From Ceratodon purpureus (Eukaryota; Streptophyta; Bryopsida; Pseudoditrichales; Ditrichaceae), in assembly GCA_014871385.1 (NCBI GenBank), contig CM026424.1, forward strand, positions 16,024,892 through 16,088,891: 64,000 nucleotides of DNA, given 5' to 3'. A model generated the notes under the pieces. That model did not search any database. It had not been told where the DNA came from and saw only the letters and a program-made list of their open reading frames with translations. Numbering within the stretch: the stretch's first letter is position 1; each line of letters opens with the position of its first letter. Below are positions 1 to 44,316 of this stretch, piece after piece. The translations under genes were made by a program, and so were the position numbers.

Positions 1-39
1 CACGGAAAGGTCCAACAAACGTTCGCCCTTTTTTTTCAG

Positions 40-419
40 GATATACTGTTGGAACTACCCCGTCTGTACCTGTGGCTCTGGGTAAACGTAGATTACCCGT
101 AATGAATGTGGACGGAATCACCGATAAGACCAAAAGACGGAAGATCAAAAGAATTGTGACCACAGTGGTGGATGGTACAGTTGACCACGAAATTCGCAAC
201 ATTCATTCCACGGTGGAGGAGTATGTGCCTAATCAGCCTAATCAGGGGGGAGATGGAGATGACGAGGGGTCGAAATCCTCAGAAGGATATTACTCATCAG
301 AAGATAGCCGTGAAGAAGCACCTGATGATGAAGACATTGTTGTAAGAGTACCATTGGGTAAGCCCGGTACTCGAAGGAATCCAGAGCGGCGCACCGCCAA
401 AAAAAACAAAAAAAAGTGA
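40..419 (+). CDS. 3'-terminal exon of an unrecognised nuclear-type protein (partial)
   Basis: A pyrimidine tract ending in cag at 37-39 looks like a splice acceptor. From there the frame is open to a TGA at 417-419, giving about 125 residues. The start lies outside the window, and the GTG at 72 is probably not an initiator because the frame stays open back to the acceptor. The protein has a basic stretch (KTKRRKIKR, a possible nuclear localisation signal), an acidic-serine stretch around GDDEGSKSSEGYYSSEDS, and a very basic lysine-rich tail. I do not recognise a family. The composition suggests a chromatin-associated or otherwise disordered nuclear protein. A short AT microsatellite follows at about 508-534. 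Confidence 0.45.
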
Positions 420-707
420 TACATCTATTAGCATATTACATATAGAAGTTATATAGAGAAAGTATAATATATATGTCTCCAAAATAATTTTAAAAAAACA
501 CAAAAAAATATAATATATATATATATATATATATCTAAATTTTATACGTAGATACTTATATGTTAACCTTAGTCAATGTCCATAAAACATTAGCTAAGGC
601 TATTGAATGTAATTTTGTTTCGACATGAATTGAAACTTCTCTCATTTATGTCACTATGAAAAATTCAGTAGTGTCTTAATTTCCTTCAGTGGTTGATTCT
701 TGTTCCC

Positions 708-1040
708 AGCTCGCGCCCCCCCCCTTCGCAGGCGCTCGCGCCCCCCCTTCGCAGGCGCTAGCGCCCCCCCTTCGCAGGCGCTCGCGCCCCCCCTTCGCAG
801 GCGCTCGCGCCCCCCCTTCGCAGGCGCTCGCGCCCCCACCCCAAACCCCTTGCTCGCGCCCCCCTGCAATCGCAGGCGCTCGCGCCCCCCCACCATCAAA
901 GGCGCTCGCGCCCCCCCCCCTCGCAGGCGCCCGCGCCCCTCCCAGTCGCTCGCGCCCCCTCGCTCGCGCCCCCCTTCCCAAGACGCTCGCGCCCCCCCCT
1001 CTCACGTGCTCGCGCCACCCTCACTCAAGGCGTTGGCGCC
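708..1040. repeat. C-rich minisatellite, about 15 units of roughly 23 bp
   Basis: About fifteen units begin with the core CGCTCGCGCCCCCCC and most end in TTCGCAGG. The first five are nearly identical and the later ones diverge and vary in length. Each unit has a run of 5-11 C on the plus strand, so the minus strand has regularly spaced G runs able to form G-quadruplexes and the plus strand could form i-motifs. Alanine/proline/arginine-rich open frames here exist on both strands only because the unit lacks stops. Confidence 0.9.
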
Positions 1041-3881
1041 CTTCCTCTTAGCCACGTCATCCCCCAAGTCAACAATATTTGGTGACATGTCGGACGCGTG
1101 GCATCCTAGGTGGCCAAGGTAACTCCCATTTCACCATTTGGGTGGTCAACCGTAAGTCCTGGTCAAACGGACCTCCCCTGACCCCTAACGGACGGACGAG
1201 CGGACCGGACGGACGGACAGGTCCTTTTGTCCCATGAACAACCCTGGCAAGAATGGGTTGGAGAATTTTCTTTTCTTTGAAAATTCATAGTAAATTCAAT
1301 ATTGCTCCAAAATTTGTTCAAAAATATGTGATCATCTTCAAATCTATTTCCCTACGCTCCAAAATTATTTGCGTATTCATTACTTCACCGGAAGTATGCT
1401 GAATTGCTTAAGGTGATCAGAAACAGGTCGTCTACCTTACCACAATCTGGTTGATTTCGACTTTAGGAGTAAAGACCTGTCCAACACACCCACATTTTTA
1501 CATGATTGTAATTCAGTCTAGGAATAGGTTGGTGCACAGAAACGGCACATGCACTGTAGATGTGCAAACGTTAGAAGCTACCACCTCGTGAATTAGGTCA
1601 CAGAGTGAGACGAGTGAAGATGAGTCACCCGCGGTACTGTTCACGTACTCCGGCACATGGGTCGGTACTGTTCAGGTACTGTGTCCCATAGTAATCATAA
1701 GTGGGTACCAAGGTTGTGCCATTTATGATGATACCAGCATATCTCTACTGTAACAGCAGTCTCGCAAGGCTGCGACGTTGGACAGATTCATGGAGAAAAA
1801 GATACAGTCCTAGACCCAAGTCAAGTAACTTGATCTTCTGCCGGTGCCGAAGGGCCCAATGAAGTGCCAGGAATCTCCACAACATGTACTTCCAATGTGT
1901 GGGCCAAGGTGATTAAGACATTCTCTACCGGCCCACGAGAGCAACATTAATGTTGCAGTGCGTTTGTGAGGTGGCCCAGCAATTCCGTAGAATGGGAATT
2001 CTTCTGGCCAGGATCTCTGCATGCTGCAGTATCTCAGTGGGGATTAGATCTTTCTCTTTATTCGGACATTTTTTGCGATCGCTTGAAAAGGAACCTGCAT
2101 TAGCCGAGCTGAATCAGTCATGACGTCAAAAACACCAAGCTCGGAAACTTCAAAATATCATAAGCGTGATCAAGCAATCGACATGAAGTATTGCGTAGCT
2201 TCAGAGGATTTCGTGACCAGTTTTCTTCGGTTGCAATTGAACTTCGTTTACTGACTTTCAAATTAGCTCAGTGCGCAGACGTTTCCAATTTTATGACTGA
2301 TGTTTCCTGCTTCATGTCAAAGTAAGTACGTGCAGTGGTGCTTCAATATAAGCTGCTGTCATGCTAAAAACTATGCAAGTGCATCTATTCGACAGAGGTA
2401 ACCAATCCTTTGATAGGAGTTTCATTGCAACTTTACATATATTTCCTTGTCAAAATACTGTGAATATGAAATAATTTCATGTTAAGGTAGGATCACCAGT
2501 ACCTACGCAGACCAACTACCCACTGGCCTAGGTGTACCAATAACTTGGAGTAGCAAGTGGTAGCATGGAAGAAAACTCTTTCTTGATTTTTGGTGCACTC
2601 GTACATAGATTTGGTTGGTAGCCTCTTTGGCTCAATTATTAGAACTTTTGCTTTGTGACCTTTGAAAATTCATAGAAAATTCAATGTGACCCCAAATTTA
2701 AAAAAAATAAAAAATAGATACATATTCTCTATGATTGCCCTACCTGTGTGTTTTTTTCACACCAATTGTGCCGGCAGCGAGGGTACGAAAGTGGCGATTT
2801 CTGGTGCGGCTACCTTAAATTGAGAGCAATAGTTATTAGGTTACGTAGTATGTAATAAAATACTATTCGGAGCAATGCTTTCATGTTAAATTGGCACCAC
2901 ATGATTCGTAGTCTGTGATAAAAATAAAATAAACAATCTGTTCTTGGAATGACTGATATCATGATTTGAAGCAGACCATGAGAGAATGTAATTTGTCGAA
3001 ACAGTTGCAATTAAAAACTCGCCCCAAAGGCTAGAGGCTTTTTGCTCGGCTTCGGTCGGACTTGAGTTTGGTCTAACGTACATGTAGAGTGCCACTGGCG
3101 AGTGACGGCTGGGCGTGGATTATCGAGTCTGTTTGAGCCTCGTTAGACCCTAGTTGCACTCCGTTAGACCCCGCTAGGCAGCTTTGGCGGACTTCACTCT
3201 GGAACTTTGTTATGCCACTCCAAGCTCTGCTCCGCCAAGCCCTGAATTTTTGGACTCTCGTTCCGCTTGTGGCACCCAGAGTCGCCTGTCTGCTTGGTCC
3301 TCCACCAAGAGGAGCGTGGAGTGGCGGACGGCGGGGCACGTACCTGACACCTTTCTCTCTTTGCAATGAGCCTTTCGTTTCACTTGCTCCTAAAAAAGAA
3401 AAAGAAAAAAAAGACAAAGATAATACTCGCATGCTATATGTGCGTGTGCATCAATTAAAATTTATAAACCTGAATCGAGTGGTCCATCAGTCCATCAATG
3501 GCAGTTTTAAAGAAGTATGTTTGATCATTGAAACTTAATTAACTAGAAGCACACCCCAATGTGAGTACAAGCCTAGAGGATTGCAAGACATCGTCTGTCT
3601 ATAATATGTACTAAAGAGCATACCTCTTAGATCTACTATGCAACATGTGTGACACTGTACCACTTCATGTGTTACACGTACTAAAGTATAAAACTAGTCT
3701 GCACTGCAAGTAGTAGTTGCCGCTGTACATGAAGTGGACATTCCTACAACATCACTCATAGAAATCAAAATCCATGTTGTATATCTGCTGGACAATTCTT
3801 ACTACTCTACAGTTCCACCACTTTACACCAATGTAATGTCACGGATAATGCAGGTCCACTTTCAAGTCCACCATACAGGGC
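1041..3881. other. No gene recognised; scattered degenerate repeats
   Basis: No convincing coding exon was found. A run of GGACGGAC-like words lies at about 1189-1222. Two related AT-rich blocks containing TTTGAAAATTCATAG occur near 1277 and 2662. The block around 1437-1475 resembles the block at 11685-11725, suggesting remnants of one dispersed repeat family. The remainder looks single copy. Confidence 0.5.
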
Positions 3882-5625
3882 TCAATGGTGTAAAGACATC
3901 CACCAGCTGTTCCTCACTTTTTGCTCGACATGCTGCAGCAATTTCGAAAGAGCTGCATATTCAAAACAAGACAGAAATCTAATCAGTTAATAACAGTTCA
4001 AGTACATTGTTGTAAAAACATTCTGCCTGCTGCAGGGGCGTGCTGCCGAAACTTACTTGTGAATTTTGCATCCACACAAGTGGAGCAGGTCCATAGCAAT
4101 TGATCCTCAATGGGGAAATCAAGCGAAGAAGTCATATCCTGAGCAGCAACATCTCGATTACTGATGCTTAATTCGCTCACCATCCGCTTCACCTGCGGGC
4201 TATCACAGCCAGCCTGAGAATCTGGAACTGCTTCCATGGGTTTTGGTGAAGTCACATTCTCAGAGGCAGCAACGTTGCAGCCGAGTCTTTGATGCTGAGA
4301 ATTAACACCCTCATTACCTAACGGTTGAGGGAAGTCAATCGCGCAGCTGCTCGCCTGCTGCATATCATAAAAGGCTTTCTTGTGGGCCAGGAGGAGTGTC
4401 TTTTTGAACTCTTTCAATTTCAGGACCCTGCTCACACATTTATCCATCGTAATAGCATTAGTTTCAGCAAATACAGAAGAAATTCAAAGCCGCCTTACGT
4501 GTTTATCTATAGGTTGAGAACTTCATTTTGTCATGCCTTAAACTGCCGAAGTAATGGGTATCTACATATCAGTTTATACACCATATATAGTCGGCTCTCT
4601 GTACTAGACGCTCAACTTATGAACAATGTTGTTCTACCCAATATTCCAGCAGACGTGATCTACAGCTGGAATCTCAAAGTTAGCTGCCTCACTGACATTA
4701 CAGTACATTGACCTGCAAAGTTCACTAAATGGGCTTTGTATGAGTACACAACGACTGCAACTTATGAGTATTTCACTTCTTTCTAATTAATGGTTCTTCA
4801 CTCGTTTTACAGTATCTACTAATGTCAAGAATTTGTGATTATCATGACCAATACGTTCCCTGGTTTTATGTGCATGATACCACAGCACGTATCAGCTTAG
4901 TACTCCAAACGTGCGTCTCGATTTAATGACCTAGTACAGCAAAAGCAAGAGGGACCGTGCAGCATTTCGGAGAAAGGTTTGATGTGACTATGTTGAGGAC
5001 CAGGCTCTGGACAGCAGCTTACGTGTTTTCACCGTTGGAACAGCAACTCACAGGTGAGTAAATGGAGTTTGTATCAGTAACAACAGGGAGCCCCTCGTGT
5101 ATTTTCGGATTATCAATGTTTCTCAAGGCATTGACGAGGGCTGTGTGCGGCACTGCGCAGTCATTTCTTGGGCCCTCCACCTGTGATCATATAGAAAGTG
5201 ATGATGTTCATTTCTGACAAATTTGTTCAAAGATAGACGTGATTGAGGAGTACGATATTCTCATCCAGAAGTTAACCAAGCTCTACAAGATTGGATTAGG
5301 GGCCAGTAATACTTACATGCATAGCAACCGCTGAAGCCAGTTTGAAGGAGGCATGGCAGTTGAAGCAGATGCCGTCTTTGTGAAAAGCGGACAAGTGGGT
5401 GTTCAGTTCCTCGCGGGTGTTGAAATCGCTCTTCTTGCACGCATTGCAATACAGCCGGTGCTTCAGATTGTAATGTTTTCGCATTTCTCGTTCCAATTCA
5501 GTCGTGAATGCAATGATCTCCTCGCAGTAGTTGCATTTGGCGTGGAAGCTGAAATGCGGCATCACTTTGGGATCCACATTACAGATTATTGGACCTTCCG
5601 ACCACAGCTTGCTGGCGTCGCCCAT
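3882..5625 (-). CDS. C2H2 zinc-finger protein, four exons, 302 aa
   Basis: Exons on the minus strand are 5625-5317, 5180-5023, 4427-4057 and 3952-3882. All introns are GT/AG (donors gtaagt, gtaagc, gtaagt). The phases 0, 2 and 1 match at each junction, and the total of 909 nt gives 302 codons plus TGA. Exon 1 encodes three closely spaced Cys2His2-type fingers at about residues 29-54 (CNYC...H...H), 57-79 (CNAC...H...H) and 84-103 (CFNC...H). The rest is hydrophilic and ends in a short predicted helix. An in-frame upstream ATG at 5697 would add 24 residues; the downstream ATG (MGDASKLW) reads as the better start. Nucleic-acid binding is inferred from the fingers only; I recognise no orthologue. 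Confidence 0.72.
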
Positions 5626-5697: not shown

Positions 5698-8600
5698 CTT
5701 CAGTCCAGATCTGTGTTCTAGAATCTGCTTATGAATCCCTCATCGACGTACAGATTCAAGCAGAAAGAGTACTACTGTGGTTTGAGATGAAGCCCACCCG
5801 GGTTGTGAAAACTCTGAATTTGATGTTGAAAGAGAGATTTTTGTACCGGTGATGCCCTTGTTCGCAGTGCAAGCTCTGAACTGGAATAGTAAAACAAGAG
5901 GAAGGGGGTATTCATGAGTATGGCAGTTTTGAAACTGCCAAAATGAGGTTCAGGATCTGAAAAATACTACATGTGCAGCTTTGGAGAGGACTCCCTAAAC
6001 TTCCAAAACTGTAAGGAACTACTACTGAATATTTAATACTCTTGCTGATAAGCTCTACTTACAGGCTACAGCATCAGCTAATATAGATGTCCCAACTGCA
6101 AATAAGACGCCACCGCCCTTAAAATGCCTGGTAAAATGACTGGTTCAACGCAGTTGGTCACTTGTGACAATCAATAATATTATTGAAACCAAGCTACAAT
6201 CAGCTTCACACACATACTACAGACACTCATACTGACCTAGTACCGTGCGTTTGCTCCATCGTGCAATAAGATAACCCACGGTGACCTGTCTGAGAGACGA
6301 AGAAGTTCAACCGAATATCAAAATGAATATTCTAGTGCGTGGTCTGTAAAATCAAGAAAACGCAAGAAAACGCAGTCTAGAGTTCTCTCATCGTCGCAGC
6401 TAGGAATCCGGCGTTTCAGCTGACCCAGTGCAAAAGTGGACAGAATGAAGCAGAGGTGCTTCGTCGGTGCCAGTGTTAACAGCGAAATCTGTACTGCTCA
6501 ACAACTGCAAGTGCAATATGTCAGCATCGTAAGATGAATCTGCTCACAACCATAAAAGCTGCGCACAACATCGCCGGTTGACGACTTGTCACTCGATGTC
6601 GGCTGCTATTCGGCGGTACGTCGACGAAGTAATACGAAATTGCTGCTTGTGAGAAAGCTTATGTATTCGTGCGAGATGCCGGTACTGCGTGATCGGATGA
6701 TGTGGCAGGCCGGCTATGTAACGACGCTACCCAGCTAGGAAATAGCGTCTAAGGCTCCAAGCGCATCAATTCAAGCAACTGCCGTGCGCGCGCGTGGAAA
6801 ACACGTCATTAATTCTGATGCGAAAAATTGACCGAGACGGTTCTAAGAAGTAGCGGCGCAGGTGAACTAGTAAGTGCGATTAAACATGAAACCTTCGATC
6901 AAAGGGTTTTGAACTAGCGATAAAAAACGGAGAGGGATGTGTGTGTCTCTAGTCTAAAGATACGACTCTGCCATGGTATGCGGTGATCGACAAGCAATTC
7001 GACAATGTATGGTACAGTACTTCCTTGTACGGTAATCCACTGAATTATATTACTCAAAGGCCGTACATGTTACTATGAATTGAAAAGCATGCACGATTCC
7101 AGCACTACTCGTCATGTGGGGCACTAAGTTAACTGATGTCCCAACTTATAATTCGATGCCTCATATGAGTGCAAGAGCACTCCGAGCTAGGGAAGCTGGT
7201 CAAATGGTCCTTTCAGAGGTCTCAAAAGCTGGTCACTGTTAGGTAAATACTTGAAAGTGAACTTGCTGTGCTACCGTAGATATCGAATGACTACGACTGT
7301 CACTATGACTATCAAGGCGGCGGTAAATATTATCAACTTGCCTGTAATTTGTCGCACCGCCATTCTTGAAGGAGGTCGGGATTGGGGGACTCGGGAGGAG
7401 CCTCTCTGATTCATTCATCTCGTTGTTCCATTAAATTAATCTTATTCCATTCATCGCAGAAGGTTCAATGATCCTCAACGGTCCAGTCTATTTCCACCAC
7501 ACTCATCAAAGTAGCTCCAGAGCTCTTTTTTCTTCAGTATGCTAGTATTTTAGTCTATCGCATGAGCAGGGAATATGTTTTTCGTCTCCCACAAATCGAG
7601 CAGAATAGACTCTATGTCGAGGGCAGAACTCTATCTCGACACAACAAAATTAGCAGACAGTTTTCTAAAGTTGAAAAATTATTAACAAAATTTAATAACT
7701 TATATTTCATGATTCGAGCGATTCCCAAATCTTCATAATTTATCACCGTTTTCCAAAGAAAAACACCAATTATATAATTAGAAATTTATAACTTTAATCT
7801 CTAACTGTCATTAGTTTTAACTTAATTACTATCTGTATTAGTGTGAAAAAAATAACAAAAATATATGTGATGTAACATAAATCTTTTAAAGTGAAATGAT
7901 AAAGAAATACTTTTTCCCATTTGATAGTAATATATGAATAATATCCTACTGTTCCAATCTCATGCTAACCCATCCTGTTTCTAGGTCTAGTAGTAATATG
8001 AAAATTGGCAAAATTGATGAACTTATGAATTGCATCCTCCCAGGCTCCCGGCCTTGAGGGAATAGGACAAGATTGATTCAAAACATACACAGACCAAGAA
8101 CACACAGGTCAACCTCAGAATTGAGTGTGGCCAATTAAGGCTGCCAAGAAGGTTAGAAGGTTTGAGAAGATCACTTCATGACAAAGGATACCTTGTATCA
8201 TTTGGGCACGACAAGCTGCAAATGTGGAAGTTAAGGAGTCCCATGTGCAAATAATAAACAAAAAATAAAAACTTATGTTTATCATGATTCACTCCTATTC
8301 TACGAAGAGGGAAACCTTTCTGTTAGGTTCGAAATTGTTCGAATTTAGCACCTAGCCGCTATTCCTTATATTACAGGCGGACATACTACGCCTGTACTAC
8401 AAAATATACGTCCTAAAATGCTAGCCAAACAGTACATACTGACTAGAATACGTCGGGCAACTCGAAAATTTTGATCCCTTCACGTGGAACATGACGTCAA
8501 GCTCCTTCATCTTTTTGGGAGCGTCATCGTCCATCTTTTTCTTTTTTGAAACCAAAGCGTTTCTACGCGAAGGTAAAAGGAAGACTAAACTTACCACCAG

Positions 8601-29985: not shown

Positions 29986-30459
29986 CATTGAATATCAAAT
30001 ATAAATGGGTGGAAACATGATAGAGTTGTCATATGGAGAGCTATATTTTCTCTTTTAAAGTCGTAAAAAATATCTTTAATTAAAAAAAAATCCATTTTTG
30101 ATAGTAAAAGTGATGTGGAATTTAACCCCTAAACCGCCAAAGTCCTAGAATGGGCTTTTTGAAATTTCAGGCAAGTTCCTATGATGTCAATTCTGGATAT
30201 AAGTTTCTAAATTTTTTTGTAGACGTAAGGAATTGCAAGAGCTTTGTGGGAGTATAATTTGTTTTTGCACTGGACATTTGAAAATATATTTATGGTGCCC
30301 AAAGCGGTTTTTCCTACTTCTCGCGCAGCTCCAAAATTTTGATACACCCTTCAACTACCTTTGGGATTTTTAATGCAAGTAACTAACATGATTGGTTTTG
30401 AGATTATCAAAAATAAATAAAAATAAAAATAAAAATAAAAAATCTTTCAAACCAGGAAT

Positions 30460-30520
30460 GCTATCTTGTGAGCGGTGAGCAGTGAGCAGTGAGCGGTGAG
30501 CACTAAATTTTCAATTTTTT
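30460..30520. repeat. Left terminal inverted repeat of the giant transposon
   Basis: Starts GCTATCTTGTGAGCGG, followed by alternating GTGAGCA and GTGAGCG heptamers and an AT-rich block ending AATTTTTT. It matches the reverse complement of 43715-43775 over 61 bp with one substitution and no gap. Repeated heptamers near a transposon end are typical transposase-binding sites; that role is inferred. Confidence 0.92.
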
Positions 30521-30714
30521 GACTATTTATTTGATATTTTGAGATGATTTTGCATGACATGGCATATATGGGACCTATGACCGTGGAAAGTGATATAGGG
30601 TATATTCTTTAAAAATGCTTCTAAATTGATAAATGTAGAAATTTACACCCGATTCATACCCGAATGAATTGTGATTTTTTTTTCATATTTCCTATCAATC
30701 CCAGGCCATGAAGA

Positions 30715-31010
30715 CCAAGAGGAAAAAATAAAAATAAAAGAAAAAAAAGAATAGAGAAGAAAATAAATAAATGAAAGAAAGGAAATAGATTAAAAATAAA
30801 TAATGAAAAGGAATATAGGGGGAAAAAATAAAAAATGAAGGAAAATAAGAAGAAAAGAAAGAAATATAAATAAAACAACGAAAGAAAAAAAACAACGAAT
30901 AAATAAAAAAATGAATTAATAAAATAAAAGATAAAACATTAAAAGGAATTAACTAAAAAAGATAAACAAGTGAAAAAATGAATGAAAGATAAAAAAAAAA
31001 AAAAAAAAAC
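30715..31010. repeat. Purine-rich low-complexity tract
   Basis: About 300 bp of almost pure A/G on the plus strand interspersed with T, built from words such as GAAAGAAAG and AAATAAA, ending in an A21-type run. It lies just inside the left end of the giant transposon. Hydrophobic-looking frames on the minus strand here are artefacts of the composition. Confidence 0.85.
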
Positions 31011-31529
31011 AGAATTAGGTGAAGAACGGATGTACACAACGGCTATTGTAGATGAATGTGGCTTCTATTTTTTTGGGATGACTAATTTATCATCCAAGTG
31101 TTGGATGACTGATTTAAAGGTAAGAAGAATTAATTAACTGAGAGTTAATTACTCCAGAAAGCAACTTGGGATTTGTGTTCGTAGGGGACCCCAAGTAATT
31201 ACAAGGGGTGCCCAAGTACCCCAAGTAATTACTAGAGCTATTTGCATAATAGGGCAGAGAAAAATACATGAGAAAGGTTTTAAGAAAATCACATTATATT
31301 GTGATGCCTTCAAGCTGTAACCAAGGAATGTTCAACGTCTTAAAAAAAAAGTACCATCTTTATAATTCAATCATGTATGAAGTCAATTTAAAATATATGG
31401 CTGGTAGAGGCCGGCTCACACAAAAGTAGAGTAAAATGAGGTTAAGGCAAAATATAAAATCCAAGGCCAAAGCTATCATATAATATATAAGTAGTAAAAA
31501 CATAACAATATAGAGTAAATATGCAATGA

Positions 31530-34500
31530 TCAAGTAGACATCTCATCATCGCTACAAGTACCAATCCAACCATCATAAGAATCGCTATCACTAGATAATA
31601 CCACTCTGGCAACTTCTGCAGCTATGTCAAGATAAATCTCAGCATCACGACAAATGCTATCTCTGTCAGATGAAATAGATGGAGAAGGAGCAGCTAAATA
31701 AGCTTGAGCCTGCATCTCTGCATAATGTGGAAGCTCTAAAGGTCTAACTGGACTCTTCATCTTGCTAAGATGGCGCGAGATAATAGAGCCACCAATGTCA
31801 TTCTTCAACGCTTTCTTCCGACTGCACAAGACAATTTCACAGTTTAATAAATATTGAACTAAAATTTTTTAAACAAATAAACAAATGTCAAATGAATGTA
31901 AAGACTTACTTACAAGAACGCTTGGGGGCAATCTTCCTCTCAGGCTCATCATCTGACTCAATGGCACGCTTCTTCTTTGGTGATGGCACAGGAATTGGAG
32001 CAGACTCAACCTCTTCCGCGCTTGGAAGAAGAGGCAACAACACCTGCTTGTACAAGGTGGTGTCATACTCAAAGCCTATGACATGGCGCCGGAGACTCTT
32101 CGATGCTCGAATGGAAGCACCTGCACACAAATTGTAGCTCAATTGCATGAGATTAAAGAATAAAAAGAAATACAACTATCAACAATCAGAGAACAGAAAG
32201 ACTAAAAAATACCTGTAGAAGCTGTGAGATCCATGACAATGTCATTCTCTACAGTGCAGAGATCAATCAGAGCCTGCAAGAGGTTAGAAGTCTTCTCTCT
32301 AGGACCTCTGAATGGCAAACCTGTCTCTGAATTATAAGTCAGAGAATCTGCAGTTATCAAATTAGTACAGTGACCATCAGTGGAGAGCTTGATGCCTTGG
32401 GCACCAAGCTCAGCCCTATCATGAAACTGGAACTTAGACCTTGGAACACCCTCCTCCGCATTCTCCATCTTGATGAAGCACTTGACCATAAAAGTCTTGT
32501 GTTCCCGTGGATAACGGTCTGGAATAGTCAATGGCAGGCCATTGATTGCAAACCACTTGGCCTCCTCCTGAAAGTTAGCCCAATCTGCCCAGGAAATAAG
32601 CTCATTTGAAATGAACCTAGAATCAGGGTAGAATACAATCAAGGCTCCATCATCCTGCAGAAACTGCATAGCAAACTCAAAATGGGCCTTAATCCACGAA
32701 GACTCCATTTTCTTCCCTGCTGAAATCTTGGGGTGCTTGTTCCAGAATGGAATCTCACCATCCTGCCCTAAACCTCGAACTGGTAAATCCTCTGGAACAT
32801 CAAAAATGATGAGGTCCACAGCAGCCTCAGCCTCTTCACCTCCAAACTTCCTAGCCTTGCTACCGAGATTCTCCTTGATCCAGTCCTTCACCTTGATCCA
32901 AACCTCAGGCTCATCCCCCTCTGATAGATCATTAAACAGCTCCAAAATGCCCATAGGGGAGTCATTGATGATCTCAACCCTAGTGTCTGCATCATCCAAC
33001 TGCGAGCATGGAATGGTGTAAATAGTCTGAGAAGGCATAGGGGTAGAAAAAAGAGGCACCTGAGGAGCTACAGGAACTATGGCAGCAGCCATGCTGCTAC
33101 CTGAAGGAGAAATGCCAACATGAGTCAACATCTTCTCAGGCCCTTCCTTCAAGACAAGCTTGGCAAGCTCCCTGTTCCTTGCTGCCAATTCTCTCTTGAG
33201 CTTGACTCCTTCCTCCTTCTCCTTCTTCTTGTCCTCCTTCTCCTTCATCCTTGCCTCAGCCTTTGCCTTCCTCTCTGCTAGTTTCTTCCTTTGCTTCTCA
33301 GAAAGAGAAGCATCATCACCAACCTCCGAGGCATTCTCCTCCAAATTCATGGTATTCTCATCTCCAAGCTGCAGCACCAAGTTGTCACAGCTAGCCTTCA
33401 AAGCTCTCTCATCCCCAGGGCACTTCTCATTCTCCTTCAATTCAAGGTACCAGGGACATTGAACAAGATGTGGAGCTCGAAAATGCCTCCTCTGATAATC
33501 TGTAAAAATGCACTCAGAGCTAGAAATATCCACCCATTTCTTAAAACGCTGTGGTATATCATTCCTATCAATGGCACCTTTAACTACCAACTCCCTCCAG
33601 AAGTACCTCAATATAACCCTCGTCACAGCATTCTCAGCCCCTGCTTGGTTGAGAAATGGCTCTTTCTTGGTAAAAGTGCCAGCCTTAGGGAAGAAACCAG
33701 TGAAGGCCTTCCCCCAAAGAGTCAGAGAATGAGCCTCAATCCATGAGCCAATATCATCTACAGGATTAGGTAAATCCGTGGTCCTGAGAACTATGATATC
33801 CTCCTCTACAATCTTGGCATAACGAAGGCTAGCCTCTTCTTCTAACTGCGGGATAACAAACAAAAACAAAAATATTAGAATCCATTACATTAGAAATAAT
33901 GTGGTATTAATTTCAATTGCAACATATTAAGACATTATTTCAATTTAACTTTTGAGAGAAATTAAGATTGTGCTTACCCCAGCCCAGAATGCTGCTTGAT
34001 CAATCCAAACTCGAAGAACTAAATCAGAAGCTGGTGTTGGAGGAAAATTGTACTCCACCCGACTTTGCTTGCTCATGTTCCACCACTTTAGCCATCTCTC
34101 CTTGTACTTGGGAGCAACCTTGGCGCTTGCAAAAAGTTGCAACTTCTCCGGGGTCATTTCTGCGTCGCTCTGATAAACATCAAAATGGCGAATGATCTGA
34201 AGAGAAGAATACCCCTATGTGAGTATGATAGACCCCTTTAACATACAGACTCACAAAAACATAGTTGCTGAAAAATGAAAATATGTAAGGTCATTTCTAT
34301 AAGCTGAATCAAGTTTCTAGCAAGAGTAGAAAATACACATCGCAAGTACCCTGCAATCACCAGGCAAGAAATAATCAGGGAGTATTATACCCTCCATTAA
34401 GAAGGAAACAATTAATGAATTCGAAAAAGAAGAAAAATAAAACTGAAAAAACGCCAACGGCAGTGTGCATCCAGCACGCACCATCAAAGAAAACATTACA

Positions 34501-37500
34501 ATTAAATAACACGCAGCAACATTCAGTGTGCCCCGCACGAAGCACCAAACAATGATTTCAAAAAAACCGAAAATGCTCGACATTGACGATGAGTAAAATC
34601 ACAGGAGAGTCTCCAAAATTGGAGCAATAAAAAAAAAACAGATTCAAGCTAGATGCTTGAGGCTTGAATCTCACCAAACAACAAGAACCAGCGTGAATTT
34701 GGAAGCAATTGCTGCGTGCTTCCAGCACGCAGCTGCAGACAATCACAACTCAATAAATAAAAAAAACCAACGCTGCGTGCATCCAGCACGCAGCAGTAAC
34801 CAAACACCAAACAGCAAACGACATACACAAGCTCTGTGCCTACATGTCGATGACCATGACCATGAAGGTGTCTCCGAAAATCAAAAAAAAAAATACAAGC
34901 AGCTATGTCAAGGCATGTGCTGGATGCAGTTCTCAAAAAAAAGTGTCTTGCGTGGGAGAGGTCCAGGCACCCCTCGGATCCGAGGGAGCCTCCGGGGGTG
35001 CCGACCAATTCCACTTTTTTCAGACTACCCTGTGAAAACTCAACCCCGCCGTCACATGCATCAAAGAACCAGCGTGAATTTGGAAGCAATTGCTGCGTGC
35101 TTCCAGCACGCACATGCACAGTATTACAACTCAATCAAAAAATACAAACCAACGCTGCGTGCATCCAGCACGCAGCAGTAACCAAACACCAAACACCAAA
35201 CGACATACACAAGCTCTGTGCCTACATGTCGATGACCATGACCATGAAGGTGTCTCCGAAAATCAAAAGAAAAAATATAACCAGAATTCAAGCCAGGTGC
35301 TGGAAGCAGTTTTTAAAAAAAAGTGTCTTCCGTGGTAGAGGTCCAGGCACCCCTCGGATCCGAGGGAGCCTCCGGGGGTGCCAAACAATTCCACTTTTTT
35401 CAGACTACCCTGTGATAATGTTTAGAAATTTACGTACCTCTTTTAAGAAACCTTCGCCATTAGCTGGGTTTGCAATGGCCAAGTATCGGTCCAATTTAGT
35501 AGAGAGGGATGTTTTCTTCACTGCTACCGCCTTCTTTGCAACGGCAAGGAGCTCTGAGGGACTTCCTACCTTGTCCTCTCCGCGACCAGTGACTAATGTG
35601 TCCCTATAGATCCGAATAGCTTCCTCTTGGGCGGCTGATATCTCTCTCTAAAATACAACAATTAGTTGTTAGTGTATTGGCTTCGATAATAAATTAAGTC
35701 ATCACTGATAAATATTTTACAAATTAAATCCATTGAAAATTCTCACCTCGTATAAGAAGTCAATGAATGCATCATATAACAGATGATACCACTTTCTGTT
35801 CTTCATACGCCCCCACTCTAGAATGCTTGCTTGCAAATCTTCATCTTTCACCAGACCCTTTAGCTGGTCAAAGTCCAACAGACCTAGCTGTTGGACCCGC
35901 TTCACCTCATGGGTCCAATGTTGAACAACATGATCTACTTCATTTTTTCTACAAACAGTTGACAGACAATCCATTTAGTTGAATTATCAAGGATTTGTAA
36001 ATGAAATAAATGAAATAAATGATTTAAACTCAAGGCATTTATGTTCTTTACTTAGTTATGAGTTTAAACTGAATGAATTACTTACTTGTTCCAATCTGTC
36101 ATGGCATGCAACAACATGTTGCAATTTGCAGGCGTGACGTTGATGATGATTGAACGGGCTGAAACATGGAAAGAGGCATCATGCTTGTGGAGAGTGTTGA
36201 TCAATTCTGACCAAGCAATATGGCGATGATTGCCGTCCCATACATAGAAATAGCGATTGGAGTATTTCTTCAAGTCTGGATTTGACAGCAAACGTGCTTC
36301 AAACTCAATGTCCTCCTTGCGCCATAAGTCGGACCAGGAAGACCTGTCAGCCTCAGTGACACTTGACTCTTCCATTCTGAAGCTCTTCAGAGATAGATAA
36401 AAGCTTGATGAACCTCGCTTGTAACCATGGCTGAATTCTGCCTTTAGCTTCTATATGTCGGTCTTCAACGGCTCCCTCACATCCTTCATAGGAATCATCC
36501 TGCAGAGTGGCACATCAATCTCCATGCCTGGTATGTCAATTGCTTCTTGAATTGCAAGATGTGAGGTACCCTGCACTGCCTTGCGGAGCTGATCTTCCAT
36601 CTCGGCCAAACCGCCATCGTTACAATCCATGCTTGTGGACGCGCTGTGCACCTCCTCCATGCCCTGTTCAGAGCTCATCTGCAAGCAAAACATGAAACCA
36701 GATTATCAAATGTCTAAACCTAAGTTGGGCCACCACATTATCTTCGGCTCACAAGTCGAATTAAATTTTCATTGCCTTCTCATTAATCTATACAAAACAA
36801 ATGAGGTACATGATTATATCGGGGTCAGCAAAGAAACTACAAAGAAAAAACAGAGCTGCTAGCTAAAACTGATATCAGATGTACCTTCACTGAATTGGAG
36901 ATCGAATTAGACTTCGCTTCCTCCACTTCTTGGAAAGCAATGCGCTTCTCTCTCGGGTTTTTCCCAAGATGAGTTTCCTGCAGCAGTGACAGTGGCTTAG
37001 TCAGTATGAATTCCGTATTCACATGTCAAGCACAATGTTTGCGTGCCAAAATGTTCCTCTTGGTTTTTGTAAATTGCATCTTCTTTCTCGCAGCTTTGCA
37101 TGTGCTCCACTCCAGACATGAGTTCGAGAACGTGGCAACCGATCGAAGCGATAATTGTATCACTGACCGTCTCAACAATGTGCATCCCGTTACCTTGCCA
37201 GCTCAAACTCAAAACAGCCTCGTAGGAGCCAGTTGCAGCTTCATTCCAAAGACATGATACATAATTCTCACTCTCACTCTCTCACACATGTCAACCAACT
37301 GGTGAATTCATGTATTTGCATTCAACTAGAATTCCTTAGCTCACATGTCCAACATGATCCTGTGCAGAATGATTCACCCAAACTTGAGCCCAATGTTCGC
37401 TAATTCGATGCTTGAGGAGTGCTTACGGAATGCCTGGAATGGGTTGCAAGCTCGAAGTTTGCGTGCCACTTAATTATATATAAAAAGTAATAAGTTTCAA

Positions 37501-38890
37501 ACCCAATTAAGTTAGGTGATCTGAGACTGTGGACCAGGTAGGATCCTCTAGACACATGGCTGCTTCGTGCGAGCTGTCCAAAATAAAAATGATAAAGTTA
37601 TTTCAACATGAAACATGTACACTTACCAGAACTGCCTTCGTAGCAAAAGCTTGCGGTTCCACAGCTGCAGATATGTCCGTTTCTTCTCCACCCTCAAGAA
37701 AACCCTCCCGTTCCTGCATGCACTATTTCAAAGCAATCAGTTCGCAAACCATCGAAATTGTCCCAAAACCCGCAAAACCACTGAAATCCAAATAAGCACT
37801 TGTAGACTTACCGAATCTCCTACTTCGTTGACAGCTTCAAGAATTCCTTCCTCCTCGAACCCGCCCACTTGTCTTTCCTGAATCAATAGCAGGGCTTCGG
37901 TTAGAATCGACACAAGCAGAGTCAATTGCCACAGACCATCTCCATTCGGCAACACAGCAACTGCCTCTCACTAGAAAATAAAAAACCCCAACTCCTATTC
38001 CACTCGTTGCAGCAGCACTTACAGACTGAGGCGAAGCCTCCTTCCGCACACACCGACGTGAGTCGTTGCGGTGGACTTCCTCAACAACAGCAGGTCCCGG
38101 CGGCGAGGTACCCTGCAAACCGACCCAACCAGTTGTTAATGATTTTAAATTCCGGCATACTTCGTTTTAGGTTTTATATCCTTCACATTCCTTTCATAAT
38201 GCGCATTCAATCAAAACGTGCGGTTGTAACCCAAACAGTCTGCAGCAACAAGAAAACTAAGCAAAATTTCTGACAAGAGATCAAAGGTCATTACAGGTTC
38301 ACTCGGATTGCTGGTGCCGAAGACGATTTGATAGGGGTCCCCAGCTTCATAAGCGTCGCCTCCTCCCTCTCCCGACGGCAACCCGACCTGCAAACCCAAG
38401 ATACCAAGGAAGGGAAAAGTCAACCCGGTACTAGGGAGAATCTCGACATTCATGAAGTCCGTCCATTCAGTAATTGACATTCATCTAGATTGTATGATCG
38501 CCTAATTCATATTTTGTGAAAGCAGTGTGCAATGCTTCTTAATGTCCTTGACAATTAGATTAAATAAACAAAGCCGCGGTTGAATCCATTCACGAAATAA
38601 ATAAATAAATTCAACATACTTACAATTTGTCAATTACACAATACAAACTGCATGGTATGGTATACCTGACATACAGTGGCCAATGCTTTGATTTTGAGAT
38701 GCTTGGGATCATCTGAACTATAATCCACTTCTGCAATACGAGCAAGATCGACTTTCTCCTTTCGTCTCTTCTGGGCCGCCACCTGCTTCGGATTACTAAA
38801 ACCTGAACCTCGCCTTCTCCCTCTACTTCTAGTCGTACATGATCTAGGAGCCCTCACTACTCTTGGGCTTGGCTCTTCCTCTTCCCTCAT
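31530..38890 (-). CDS. Transposon-borne protein with C-terminal degenerate N4/N6 DNA-methyltransferase fold (13 exons, about 1,337 aa, one in-frame TAG)
   Basis: Exons on the minus strand are 38890-38666, 38387-38295, 38112-38023, 37877-37812, 37713-37627, 36977-36885, 36678-36086, 35948-35747, 35647-35438, 34196-33978, 33845-32213, 32120-31910 and 31821-31530. Every junction is GT/AG with matching phase. Exons 2-6 are short and symmetric. The N-terminus is basic (RSRGRRRGSG), and an E/K-rich coiled coil lies at about residues 806-863. The C-terminal domain (about 960-1200) has the order of beta-class amino-methyltransferases: a motif-IV-like FDVPED (32790-32801), a GALIVFYPDSR strand, then REKTSNLLQALIDLC and a motif-I/II-like DLTASTGASIRAS...VIGFEYD that crosses the last large intron. 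Canonical DPPY and DPFxGSG are lost, so catalysis is doubtful. A TAG at 36451-36453 interrupts exon 7, probably an old CAG. The partner transposase is divergent. Some short exons could be alternatively used. Confidence 0.75.
34683..35415. repeat. Tandem duplication (two units of about 352 bp) in intron 9
   Basis: 34683-35035 and 35064-35415 are highly similar and separated by 28 bp. Each unit holds two hairpins of the form GCTGCGTGC-CCAG-CACGCAGC type and one GC-rich hairpin (34966-35002 and 35346-35382) with arms GGCACCCC/GGGGTGCC around a perfect CCTCGGATCCGAGG palindrome. It makes intron 9 by far the longest of this gene. Open plus-strand frames here have no coding support. Confidence 0.88.
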
Positions 38891-39592
38891 AGGTCTCAGT
38901 AACGCTCTCCCGTAAACATAATTCTAACTAAGACGTATGCTTTGAAATCGACAAGTGCTTAGTACCAGTTTTATAGTGGACTCTTAGTACCCTAAACCTT
39001 TCAGACCTATAATACATGCATGAGCATCCTGTGATTGCTAATGTTCGTGTCAGTATCTTCGTTATGTACTAATAGTAGTATATATTTAAATTGTTAGGTG
39101 CAGACCATTTTAGAATGGCCAGCAAATCTATGTAAAGGGAATGACATGATCTAATGTTGAAATTTGTGAACACCACTCACTGATCTAGTATGATATCTCT
39201 GGTTATTTTAAAGTAAGTTATGGAACTCTGCCTCGAAACAAAATAACCATTTGAAATAAAGTTGCCATGGTCACGCTGACACTGACGGCTAATTGTTATA
39301 AATGTATTGGTGCACCTCTGTGTCAGCACAAATTCTTTGCTGAATGATATAATAGAATTAGCTAAACATGATGTGGTTGGCGGTCTCAGCCGCCTAAGCA
39401 TTTCAGTTTGTCAGATACATTCGAACTTAAATTAAGCTATACAGGTCATGGTGAATTCACGAGTACACCCTATTTCATTTTAGAGTATGTTAGCTGTCCC
39501 ACCACACTAACCACTAACAACTATATAATCTCTACAACCTGGAACACATCAAGCACATCTTCTTACACTCTACTTGCACAAGCTCTTCTCCA
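38891..39592. promoter_or_regulatory. Shared divergent promoter region of the giant transposon
   Basis: The two transposon genes start back to back about 0.7 kb apart. On the minus strand TATAAAA lies at 38975-38969, about 80 bp upstream of the methyltransferase-like ATG. On the plus strand TATATAA lies at 39522-39528, about 65-107 bp upstream of the two candidate transposase ATGs (39593, 39635). Positions fit plant TATA boxes plus short leaders. The shared region would allow co-expression; this is inferred. Confidence 0.5.
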
Positions 39593-42500
39593 ATGCATGA
39601 TTGTACTTCTTCTATCTTCTATAGTACACTTAGAATGGCCTCTCTACGGTCTCATGATGGAGGTATTCCTTTTGTGATGTCTGTAGGTCCAGACAATAAG
39701 GTAGTTGTGGAGGAGCGATTACTTAGCCTCAGGTTTGGGTTTAGAGCTGGGACTATTTACGTGGAAGAAGAGATTTTTGATGATAATGGTGAGATTCTTG
39801 AGTGTGTATTTCAAGTGAAGGATAGTACACCCGATGGTTACGTCTGGACTCTTAGCACTGGAACTTTTAAGGTTTATGGGTTATCACATGCACAGATGTC
39901 TGAGTCTACTGTTCTTTTGACCCCTCCCCCTTCCACATCAACAGTTCAAGTTCCTGGTCTAGCATCTGTCAAAATTGAACCCAGTGACAACTCAGTACAT
40001 TTGTTGAGTGACTCGGATGATGACACTCACAGTGAGATCAAGCTAGGAGACACTAGGTCAAATCCATTTCAGAGTCGTGGATCCCAAGACTCAGGTCGTC
40101 CATCTCGACAGGGTAGTCGTTCTGCGTCATTGTCTACAGGGCGTCCACCTATTCACCCTGCTTCCAAAAAAAACAAGAGCATTATGTTTTCCATCAGAAT
40201 GACAGCATCAAGAAGGGGCTCCCGATCAGAATTATCGAAGATTGATTTCGACACTATTGAACATGAACAAGTGAAGTATTTACCGCCAGTTTACGATGGA
40301 GACAAGATTTTCGAGCTGCCCCCTGTACCAGAAGGAGTTCCAAATCCATTCGAGGGTGGAATGGACGGGATGAGCAAGCAGTATGATGGCCACACCTGGT
40401 GCAAGACCATGACCACAAACATCAAGAACGAGTACGGCCTCACATATCGTAAGTCATCCTGTACTGGACACTTACAATGTCCCAACATGAGTTGTGATTA
40501 CATCTGCCGGAATAATGGGAGGGTAAATAGCACTGAATGGTCAGGCGTAGCTTTAGTACCTTTCACTGTGGGAGGCTCCCCCACAGAGAAATCTACTTTA
40601 GCATGCAAAGTATGTCAGACACCTCCTACTTGTCTAGCATTGTGCGAGGCTAGGATCTATCATGTATCGACTTCAAACAATGATATGACCCGTGCGGCGA
40701 TTCATTTAGGACGTCATAGACATCCTGTTTCTCAGGGCAGATGTCAAGATACTATGGATATCATGTTTGACTGCATAGCTAAGGAGGTTCAGAGGACACC
40801 TAACGCCAAAAACTCTGCTATCGTTCTAGCGGCCAGCAAGCAGTACCTTGCCGATGCTCTGATCCATCCTACTGCAGGAGGCAGTCATCTTCGGGGAGCA
40901 TCTATGGATGCTGTAATGGACCAATTTGAGACTCTTTCTTCCCCGAATATACGGAATTTTGTTTCTGGATCGAAGAGGTTTTTCCGTCAAGGAAGAGGAG
41001 TCACAGATAGCATCCTGGAGCTGAAGGATTACTCCAACTTTGATTTCATCCACCGTAATCAGTTCCCTGGACAGAATGAAGGCAAGGTGTTTCCGTTCAA
41101 GATGTCGACTGATCGTCCAGGAAGCGGTGTGGATCTGGTGAAGCCCATGCAGGCTGGAGGTGATCTTCAAGACTGTTGGATCATGTTCGACCATGTTAGG
41201 CGTGTAGCTGACTGGACCACTATGGCATGCCACGTTTATGACAGTAAGTATTGTAAAGTTATGACAATTGCCCTTTGTGACATGCAATCCGAAGATGCTG
41301 CTGCTCAAGAATTATTTTGGCTCTAGCTCAATGAAGTTAAGCGCAAGAACGGCCTTGAAAATACTAATTTCAAAGGATTCATGGCTGACAATGCTGGAGC
41401 CAACTGGCACGCTGTTCGGAAGGTGTATGGGAATGGAGACCCTAATGATCCTATGGAAGAACGGGAGCGCACTTGTCTTTTCCACTGGACGAAGTGCCTT
41501 CAGAGGGCCACTTCTCGGAATATCTTGCCAAGCTTTCAAGACCAACACAAAGCTTTGTGCAAAGTATGGAAGGACGCAAAGACCCAGGAGGAAGCAGAAG
41601 CGCAGTACAACGTCATCCGCGGGTGGTGGCTTTCGTCAGGCGCTACAACTGAAGAAGGAAGGCGTCATCTAAATGATTGGATGGTTTTCTGACACTATCG
41701 GTATAGACAATGGGGAGGCTCGATGCAGCTTGTAAGTTCATTCATCTCTAAACCTTCCATGAAGTATTAGTATACCTTGCTTTTTATCTTTAATCCTGAA
41801 AATGACATTATTTATTTTATTGTATTTCCCAGGATCTTACCCTTGACGAGAGAGCCGACATGCCTTCCTGCAACCTTGCGGAAACCGTGCATAACAGATG
41901 GCTTCAACAATCAGGAAATACAATGACCTGTTTGTACAAGGCAACAGTGGATGATATGATCCAAGCATTCATGCAAATCACAAGCTATCGGTCTTGGCTG
42001 AAGGGTGGAAAGGGCGGTAAAGGTCCGGATAGAGCAGAACTTCGTTTACGCCACGCTCAACGCTCTGGTGACCCCAAGTTGATTGCTGAGGCAGTTAATT
42101 TCTACCCGGGAGCCGAGGATTTACTGACGAAGAAAGGAGGCTTGGAAGGTGCAGAGATCTTTGGATCTACGAAACGGAAGTTAGATTTGCCGCCTGGTTC
42201 AAGTCATGACTCGCATCGCTATGATACAGTGAATTATTCCATTCCTCGTGATGGCACGAGGTCCACCAGAGCACGCATAGAGGAGGCTCTTTCTCAACCT
42301 GACTCCGGTGTTGAACACACTACTTCAGTGCAGGAGACAGATTGCGACCCGTCTAAGTGGCACATTGCCAAACTGTCCGGCAAGTCTAACCGAAAATGCC
42401 AAGCAATGCAGGCTCATACAAATGAGAAGTGCGATACCCGAGTGCGCCGAGGTACACATGGTACGCCTGCTCCTACCTATGTAGGGCTGAAGAAGGAGTT

Positions 42501-43233
42501 TAGAACCGATTGCCATATTTCTACTGACTTCTGGTTTTGCGCCGATGACATTAATAGATGTGTGAAGGGCACAAAGAAGTCGTTTGTGATCGATTGGCCA
42601 TCTATCCCGCAGACTTGGCCTGTGAAAATGGGCACGAACTTGACCATCAAAGAGATTTTGCCTCTTGAAGAGGCCGGCTTCCAACTCCAACAACGTGGAG
42701 TACTATCACCTCGTCGTCAGTTTCAGGTCTCTGCTAATATGCCGCTTCCACGGAGTCATTTCCCGGTTCCTGCGGATCCGGATACACACCCGACGACTCG
42801 AAACGGATATGCCATCAGGAGAAGTTCTGACGCTCCTACCTCCGACCACCGCAACAAGTGGAGCAGCGCGGGTCTCATGAACAACTATTGGATTACAAAT
42901 GTCACATCCATTCCATATCCAGGATTTGGCTGCGTCATCTCCTTGAAGAGTCCAAGTGAAACGATATATTGTATCACCATCACGGACTTCCCTGGATGTA
43001 CTTGCCCCGACTTCATGAAAATGACTTCGGAAACCCTTGGCAAAAGAGGACAGTGGAAGTACTGCAAGCATGTTTATTATATCTTCCGCTATCTATGTGA
43101 GATGGATTACAAGGTTGATACTTTTATGCACGCCCCTAGCTTCAGCTTCACGAAGTTATGCGTGTTCTGGAGATGGCCAAAGTTGCTGAACCGCTTCAGT
43201 AGTTTCTTATGGTTAGATTGTGAAATCAAGTGA
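39593..43233 (+). pseudogene. SWIM-type DDE transposase of the giant transposon (two exons, about 1,180 codons, three lesions)
   Basis: Exon 1 is 39593-41731 and exon 2 is 41833-43233, with donor gtaagt and acceptor ttcccag in phase 0. ATG 39635 (MASLRSHDGG) is an alternative start. N-terminal residues up to about 200 are serine-rich. A zinc-cluster segment spans about 268-385 (SCTGHLQC, LACKVC, TCLALC, then a histidine-rich HLGRHRHPV). The RNase-H-like core includes CWIMFDHVRRVADW, ALCDM, FMADNAGANWHAV (about 599) and RTCLFHW, as in MULE-related transposases. A SWIM finger CTCPDF...CKH (CxC-x19-CxH) lies at 42997-43071. Lesions: in-frame TAG 41324-41326, TGA 41690-41692, and a 1-base loss near 43152. 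The last of these replaces a natural ending (frame +1, stop 43200-43202) with a longer tail. The family cuts and moves DNA between TIRs. This copy should be inactive without suppression of the stops. Confidence 0.85.
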
Positions 43234-43376
43234 CCAATATAGTTCAAGAGTACATTATATGAATAGCGGAATTGATTTGTTTTGGCTTTGTGATGGATTT
43301 GGAATCCGCAGAACATAAATAAAGGTCACTATTTATTTATGTATTGTCCACCTCTCGAATGTGTTTGCCGTGAAAT

Positions 43377-43480
43377 GAAAGCAAGAGAAGAATATTTCCA
43401 GGGCATGAAGGAATATTCTTCTCTCGGATCCGAGAGAAGAATATTCCTTCATGCCTTGGAAATATTCTTCTCTTGCTTTC
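43377..43480. repeat. 104-bp near-perfect palindrome without spacer
   Basis: The arms are 52 bp and meet at GGA|TCC (43428/43429). I see one mismatch pair (near 43402 and 43455). It lies about 145-175 bp beyond the transposase stop and 235 bp inside the right TIR. The centre CTCGGATCCGAG is shared with the hairpins in the intron-9 duplication. As RNA it would fold into a very stable hairpin able to end or mark the transposase transcript. Open frames on both strands read the same residues because of the symmetry. Confidence 0.93.
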
Positions 43481-43714
43481 CGCGACCAAGAAAATCCAAT
43501 AAAAAAAAATTTAAAAAAAAATTGGATATACTTTCTGTATGTGACTTGAACAATAAGCTTTCCCATCCAACCATTAACATTTGATTTATTCCACGGTTAT
43601 AGGGTCTACTTTATTTGCATTCATATATTCCAACGAAGAGTCTTAAATTGCTCACCATTGTTTGATTGCTCTCAAAAAAATTCAAAAAAATAAAAAAAAT
43701 TCAAATTTTTACCT

Positions 43715-43775
43715 AAAAAATTGAAAATTTAGTGCTCACCGCTCACTGCTCACCGCTCACCGCTCACAAGATAGC
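43715..43775. repeat. Right terminal inverted repeat of the giant transposon
   Basis: Reverse complement of the left repeat with one mismatch in the heptamer array (GTGAGCG in place of GTGAGCA). It ends CACAAGATAGC. The next bases, GTCGCTG, pair imperfectly with the left CAGGAAT. Confidence 0.92.
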
Positions 43776-44316
43776 GTCGCTGATTTTCAAACTATAAAGA
43801 GACAAAGTTTTACCATTTTCTCTTTTTTTTTTAACTTCAGGAATAGACATAGACCTTTGTTTTGACCGCATAGATTTTTATTCTAACAAAAAATGGTTTA
43901 TCAAAAAAAAAAAAATGAGTATTAGTAATAACATGAATCCGTGTTCCTTATACAATGCCTTTTCGTCAAATCTAAAATTTGGTGCACAAGTAACTAACAC
44001 CATGTACATCATTTTAGTACAAAACCTCCAACATGTATAGTGCAAAAAAATTGCTCAAAGAGAAGTCAAAGTCAGCTAATCATGTTTTGAAAGGATAAAA
44101 AAGAACATTGTTTGATATTTCAAACTCTATAGTCTTCTAATCCACACGCTGAAATTTATTGAAATTTTTTGTACATGATCTTTGAAAGTCTTAAGTCACA
44201 TCCTATAGTTAGAGATGCAAAAGCAACTTTATTTTTTATTTGTTCACTCTTGTTTCTGAAATGATAGTTTTTGGAGTGTTTTTGGTGAGAAATGGTCATG
44301 GTTGATTAGGGGTTAA

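Follow-up and report, generated by a model that had tools for sequence, protein, structure and literature searches.

A transposon of Ceratodon purpureus with Mutator-like anatomy and a putative pseudo-methyltransferase as its second gene

A 64,000-nucleotide stretch of the Ceratodon purpureus genome (assembly GCA_014871385.1, contig CM026424.1, positions 16,024,892 to 16,088,891; hereafter the window, whose positions are used throughout) contains a transposon of 13,330 bp (30453-43782), in which two divergent multi-exon genes, a transposase gene and a partner gene, lie between inverted repeats. We compared this element with its relatives in the host's own genome (362 Mb in 151 contigs, one of 110.5 Mb). 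Judged from these sequence comparisons, we consider it somewhat probable that the element is a cut-and-paste, Mutator-like transposon whose partner is a pseudo-methyltransferase that handles the element's DNA and on which the lineage depends, with a role against silencing as the favoured function. The evidence comes from the pairing of the two genes in many copies, from selection on every coding segment of both and from the domain composition of the partner.

The 61-bp terminal inverted repeats (TIRs) are located at 30460-30520 (+ strand, with GTGAGC-type subterminal repeats) and 43715-43775 (- strand). Both arms begin GCTATCTTGTGAGCGG (from 30460, and mirrored from 43775 inward) and they differ at one position. 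The outer ends beyond them read CAGGAAT on the partner side and, as reverse complement, CAGCGAC on the transposase side. Because the arms are nested in shared CAG...CTG ends, the element is taken to span 30453-43782; an earlier note on this DNA, made from the letters alone, had proposed a 13.3-kb transposon with 61-bp TIRs and one mismatch at the same coordinates. Ten other copies were fetched, of which the tenth (L037/L038) has no right end in its stretch and was dropped from the border comparison. All nine other complete copies (12.6-16.9 kb) are flanked at the same borders by an exact 10-bp target-site duplication (TSD), and the flanks of the window copy (30443-30452 and 43783-43792) agree at 8 of 10 bases. 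Inspection by eye found a one-base change in the first seven bases of the partner-side end or in the nearby TIR in four of the nine complete copies (at least L031/32, L033/34, L045/46 and L043/44). GTGAGC units are repeated at both ends in 10/10 elements. A 16-mer of the TIR occurs at 347 genome sites (172 + 175), compared with none for the reversed control. The TSDs and the many dispersed copies demonstrate past transposition of the element.

The two divergent multi-exon genes described in the earlier note are real, judged by comparison of copies (exons, splice signals and the ratio of non-synonymous to synonymous substitution rates, dN/dS). Eleven coding segments (E1-E8 of the partner and T1-T3 of the transposase) were found in 10/10 elements, with scattered stops and conserved GT-AG boundaries; matches are only partial for exon 2 in L039 and for one transposase segment each in L031 and L043. 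The transposase has ∼1,158 amino acids and the partner ∼1,194 in eight exons (1,193-1,201 in the nine copies with every exon complete, five of which are stop-free). Both genes are open in L029, L033 and L035, and copies with open frames number dozens within the one genome. The window copy itself is broken in both genes, by an in-frame TAG in the partner (36451-36453) and by three lesions in the transposase: an in-frame TAG (41324-41326), an in-frame TGA (41690-41692) and, after 43149, a shift of the frame by one base.

The dN/dS ratio is below 1 in every scored pair (dS >0.05, finite value) of all 11 segments, which indicates purifying selection. Medians are 0.30, 0.13, 0.05, 0.12, 0.10, 0.19, 0.24 and 0.27 for E1 to E8, and 0.11, 0.05 and 0.08 for T1 to T3. 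Rows of other than the commonest size were excluded, which left 7-10 of the 10 copies per segment. Saturation at silent sites removed many further pairs of E2, E3 and E4, for which 17, 27 and 31 pairs could be scored. Mean dN reaches 0.057 in exon 6 and 0.136 in exon 2, compared with 0.021, 0.011 and 0.010 in the transposase segments; the partner therefore evolves faster than the transposase. Percentages of subfamily identity by themselves are no proof of this, because the search for transposases used the most conserved part of the protein as query. Singleton C>T changes were counted at 42/404 CG, 66/626 CHG and 157/2,267 CHH sites. Of nine stops in the segments that were looked at, seven can be explained by a single C>T or G>A substitution, one cannot and one is ambiguous. 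This decay pattern is a weak hint, compatible with host cytosine methylation.

The transposase and its partner recur together. In the shorter lists, a transposase match lies no more than 15 kb from 48/78 methyltransferase matches, and in 47 of these cases the two are divergent. In the larger lists, obtained with short queries (150 listed matches each) and a pairing window of 25 kb, a divergent partner accompanies 79/91 transposases of at least 90% identity, 5/12 at 78-89% and 11/47 at 70-77% among the matches listed. This amounts to 95/150 paired transposases among the matches listed and, viewed from the partner, also to 95/150; random placement, with contig sizes that were partly rounded or guessed, averaged 0.97 and reached 5 at most in 200 trials. 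When further partner matches were added, the 70-77% group rose to 26/47 (28 within 45 kb) and the 78-90% group to 6/13, so that 19/47 and 7/13 of the distant transposases still have no partner among the matches listed. By subfamily, and relative to family-1 queries, partners of 68% identity pair with transposases of 97-98%, those of 64% with 89% and those of 44-48% with 73-77%; another group of partners, whose identity to a relative from another genome (L054, see below) is 40-41%, pairs with transposases of 73-74%. The partner has been retained in subfamilies that have diverged and is therefore probably needed.

A survey of 100 listed TIR sites out of the 347 gave 30 adjacent pairs less than 25 kb apart. 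With the fuller lists joined by hand, 15 pairs enclose both genes, 4 the partner only, none the transposase only and 11 neither; the last are non-autonomous. With the short lists, 7 pairs had held both genes, 4 only the transposase, 3 only the partner and 16 neither; the four transposase-only pairs vanished with the fuller lists. The earlier note had regarded the element as one mobile unit, and the repeated divergent co-occurrence of both genes between these TIRs, with different flanks in the host's own genome, agrees with that view. Near relatives of the methyltransferase-like gene sit between TIRs and not at one host locus without them, and TIRs confined to the transposase were found in none of the 30 pairs.

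The partner gene lies on the - strand. Exon 1 (38666-38890, start codon assumed) encodes a basic, arginine- and glycine-rich N-terminus, and exon 2 (36086-36678, which holds the window copy's TAG) a ParB-like domain (PLCRM...VR...DGNHRxxAW). Exons 3 (35747-35948), 4 (35438-35647) and 5 (33978-34196) are followed by exon 6 (32213-33845), which encodes an N-terminal part, a charged linker and the methyltransferase domain with its motifs IV and I, by exon 7 (31910-32120), where this domain ends, and by exon 8 (31530-31821) with the stop codon TGA. When exons 6 and 7 are joined, their product matches the N6_N4_Mtase family PF01555 at E = 3.7e-10 (40.6 bits, cut-off 26.7, profile positions 29-217), while exon 6 alone stays below the cut-off (E 0.0016). 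The best Protein Data Bank (PDB) chains for the domain are the adenine methyltransferases DpnA and CcrM (E 0.005-0.008). A profile search of the PDB with exon 6 returned unrelated chains, mostly across the charged linker, and PHROGs and NCBIfam gave weak matches only (best E 0.024 and 0.031; one DNA-methyltransferase PHROG at 0.22). The profile match firmly identifies the predicted C-terminal domain as an N6/N4 DNA methyltransferase domain, as the earlier note had read from its topology. Its description of the partner as a methyltransferase-fold protein holds for the fold, but the partner exceeds a methyltransferase in size, and the N-terminal ParB-like half, the lesions of this copy and the broader spread of the architecture through the genome were not mentioned there.

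In this domain, motif IV precedes motif I, which is the arrangement of beta-class enzymes, whose catalytic motif reads (D/N/S)PP(Y/F/W) and whose motif I usually has a first glycine. Here, motif I (DLTASTG) lacks this glycine, and motif IV reads DVPE, with the first proline and the aromatic residue of the canonical motif replaced, in 19/19 transposase-linked copies read (13/13 for exon 6 and 6/6 distant). DNA encoding DVPEDLP has 101 genome matches in several synonymous spellings, compared with 1 for the reversed pattern, and 97 of 100 listed sites coincide with a listed partner match. Among partner matches that cover the motif, exact DVPEDLP is found in 79/99 at ≥85% identity, 15/18 at 64-84%, 0/3 at 49-63% and 0/13 at 44-48%. 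Eight distant copies were read, of which three have DVPEGLP and three DVPENLP; these six all adjoin a listed transposase, and the other two are unpaired. An altered and fixed catalytic motif speaks against an ordinary writer of methylation. Because the site is altered yet constant, the fold seems to be reused for something besides ordinary methylation.

In the ParB-like exon 2, 32 residues are invariant over seven sequences, DGNHR..AW among them. The ParB/sulfiredoxin-type fold binds nucleoside triphosphates (NTPs), and DNA in ParB, and its NTP motif contains an arginine (GxxR..A). The best AlphaFold model of the domain has a mean predicted local distance difference test score (pLDDT) of 74, with most 10-residue blocks of residues 61-190 at 81-95, and we take its order of strands and helices to be ParB/sulfiredoxin-like. 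Sequence and model together suggest that the first half of the partner likely has a fold of this type. According to PMC12704722, ParB folds fused to PF01555 occur in phages and are enriched in prophage regions, and such folds bind NTP; the words plant, transposon and moss were not found in the text that was searched for them.

The transposase is encoded on the + strand by exon 1 (39635-41731, ATG at 39635 assumed), which holds candidate catalytic aspartates in MFDHV and MADNAG, and by exon 2 (41833-43202), which holds a candidate catalytic glutamate (AETVHNRW) and a SWIM-like stretch (CTCPDF...YCKHVYYI). These DDE and SWIM candidates were recognised by eye only. The 1,158-residue protein matches no Pfam family at E up to 10, profiles of Mutator-like elements (MULEs; PF10551 and kin) included, and the SWIM stretch alone has no Pfam match either. 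Thus the SWIM/DDE features of the earlier note are present as motifs, but no Pfam transposase or SWIM family was matched. MULEs generally have a TSD of ∼8-11 bp, a DDE triad and a C-terminal SWIM-type C-x-C...C-x-H motif, and the 10-bp TSD of this element falls inside that range. The element appears Mutator-like in anatomy, with Mutator membership unproven.

Relatives of the partner extend beyond this element. A 4.7-kb contig filed under a cyanobacterial (Synechococcales) metagenome-assembled genome (L054, gene at 1-4181) encodes partner exons 2-7, each exon 45-68% identical to its counterpart; its introns occupy matching positions and its motif IV is DVPEDLP. No transposase was found within its 4.7 kb. 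Because of its introns, L054 is probably a eukaryotic contaminant of a public bacterial genome, from another genome that is probably plant and perhaps moss. In the host's own genome, a second family (L049+L051 and L050+L052) has the same ParB-like and methyltransferase architecture, with 33% (methyltransferase) and 47% (ParB-like) identity between L049+L051 and the partner; its loci lie away from the transposase and have DQPY and DQPF as motif IV. A third family (L053) shares exon 2, with a resemblance by eye in exons 3 and 4 as well.

At least 195 ParB-like exon matches occur in the genome (some loci give two pieces), including some near-identical dispersed groups. The idea that all these loci belong to this transposon was rejected, since none of the 60 distant transposases comes within 20 kb of any of the 148 ParB-like or 78 family-1 loci used; this test covered 148 of the 195 matches, and partners of the distant transposases were found only with other queries. 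One of the 148 loci (C5:19.66 Mb) is 15.9 kb from a family-1 transposase. Because ParB-like loci are mostly away from the transposase, the architecture is wider than this transposon, and the expansion probably reflects other mobile families that use it. Searches of viral contigs with tblastn gave no relatives of exon 6, the ParB-like exon or the transposase. In phages, the family-2 ParB-like exon had no match and the family-2 methyltransferase domain matched 78 records (60 of them listed), each below 60% identity. No match covered more than 80% of the query, and most were close to motif I. Two phage methylase genes (L055 and L056; 221 and 260 amino acids) were rejected as too short for a ParB-methyltransferase fusion.

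Exchange of gene parts between elements is indicated by the window copy and L041. Their transposases are 98.3% identical at the DNA level (closest pair, support 0.999) but their partner exons 2-5 only 71.9%, and the two copies fall on opposite sides of the split in the exons 2-5 tree (support 1.000). Because trees and identities disagree, partner halves (or transposase halves) have been exchanged between elements.

In the proposed mechanism, the transposase moves the element by cut-and-paste as in Mutator, and the partner binds the element's own DNA without ordinary catalysis, perhaps loaded as an NTP-switched clamp. The partner would then either prevent silencing of the element or ready its ends for the transposase. 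Anti-silencing is our preferred reading, given the faster divergence of the partner relative to the transposase and the apparent swapping of its first half between elements as a few old types. A conflict with the host would account for these features better than would a structural task at ends that stay constant, but they are no proof of it. A more specific and tentative proposal, which we think somewhat doubtful, is that a phage-type ParB-methyltransferase fusion turned into a pseudo-enzyme, i.e. an NTP-switched, sequence-specific clamp that would read or mask host-methylated element DNA against silencing, with exchangeable recognition halves that would give rise to subtype diversification.

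Several observations weigh against the pseudo-methyltransferase reading or parts of it. The ParB-like exon 2 and its relatives have no match to ParB through PF02195, other Pfam families or relevant PDB sequences, the sole weak lead being DndB (E = 0.02) in one relative, and three of five AlphaFold models have a mean pLDDT below 50. The partner can ride without the transposase, as it does in 4/30 TIR pairs. A degenerate motif IV is no proof of lost catalysis. In addition, 20/99 close partner matches differ somewhere in the seven residues of DVPEDLP (the one read, L044, has DVPEDLL), and the two unpaired distant copies have DVPKGLP with an open frame and DMPEGLP with a stop.

Three other explanations of the partner were weighed. 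It could be a transposition accessory protein that binds the ends or the GTGAGC repeats, silencing not being involved, much as MudrB has an accessory-type role in transposition. Its pairing with the transposase, the GTGAGC units at both ends of all ten elements and its basic N-terminus would suit such a role, but ends and transposase are near constant while partner exons 2-5 differ by ∼28% at the DNA level between elements with near-identical transposases. Because these exons vary beside constant ends, the two show no tight co-evolution, and we regard the accessory role as rather unlikely. Less probable still is that the partner is an active enzyme, methylating adenine at N6 or cytosine at N4 despite its unusual catalytic motif, and marks element DNA. 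The Pfam match above the cut-off, strong selection on the methyltransferase domain and the two second-family loci with a motif nearer to the canonical one are what such an enzyme would lead one to expect; the replacement of both the aromatic residue and the first proline in all 19 linked copies read and in L054, together with the missing glycine of motif I, speaks against it.

The partner could also be a host gene captured as a passenger (Pack-type transduplication), given the related ParB-like and methyltransferase genes found elsewhere in this genome, not beside the transposase. The purifying selection on every exon, the conserved introns, the retention across transposase subfamilies and the presence of the same gene in L054 make this very improbable. 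Because selection acts on all segments and the pairing is kept in diverged subfamilies, the partner does not behave as a passenger, and on these comparisons such a capture appears largely refuted.

Like Mutator-like elements (e.g. MuDR and Vandal/VANC), the element has long TIRs, a 10-bp TSD, a candidate SWIM-like tail and a second gene beside the transposase. However, MudrB and VANC are unlike the ParB-like and methyltransferase-fold protein encoded by its second gene, and its transposase has no Pfam match to MULE or any other transposase family. METTL14 and MTA9 are catalytically inactive MT-A70 proteins that are paired with an active subunit; they resemble the partner in a methyltransferase fold that is kept while its catalytic motif is degenerate, but no active methyltransferase subunit was seen inside the element. 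Vandal elements carry a gene for a regulator of their own silencing, and fungal DNA transposons that carry TET/JBP DNA-modification genes are known (both from PMC12730594). The latter also have a DNA-modification fold as second gene, but the enzyme fold and the host are different here and the catalytic motif is altered. The phage fusions of a ParB-CTPase with an N6_N4 methyltransferase described in PMC12704722 combine the same two domains; by comparison, the partner has introns, a eukaryotic transposon as its setting, a long middle part and a similarity to ParB at the level of motifs only. Among the results listed from open-licence PubMed Central (PMC) papers, no description of a transposon with this partner was found, which does not show that none exists. 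DNA-modification partners in transposons are already known. Transposons with genes for DNA modification or against silencing are known in small number, and they reveal both how genomes silence DNA and how the elements respond. If the ParB-like half is real, a ParB switch has been brought into a eukaryotic transposon. Dozens of open-frame copies in one genome make the proposal testable.

Some further features were also noted. Two tandem, diverged repeat copies of ∼400 bp are seen by eye at 34640-35410, in the intron that separates exon 4 of the partner from exon 5; alignment of other elements there is poor or absent. Between the first two partner exons, the content of 36720-38290 varies among elements, and most of it can be aligned only to L029 of the nine others. 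Upstream of the family-2 ParB-methyltransferase gene of L051, a protein-kinase exon (PF07714, L051 positions 6953-7213) is probably a neighbouring host gene. A near-perfect 104-bp palindrome at 43377-43480 is present in the window copy and L041 (2/10 elements), with one arm in L045 and no trace found in the other seven, and is probably a secondary insertion.

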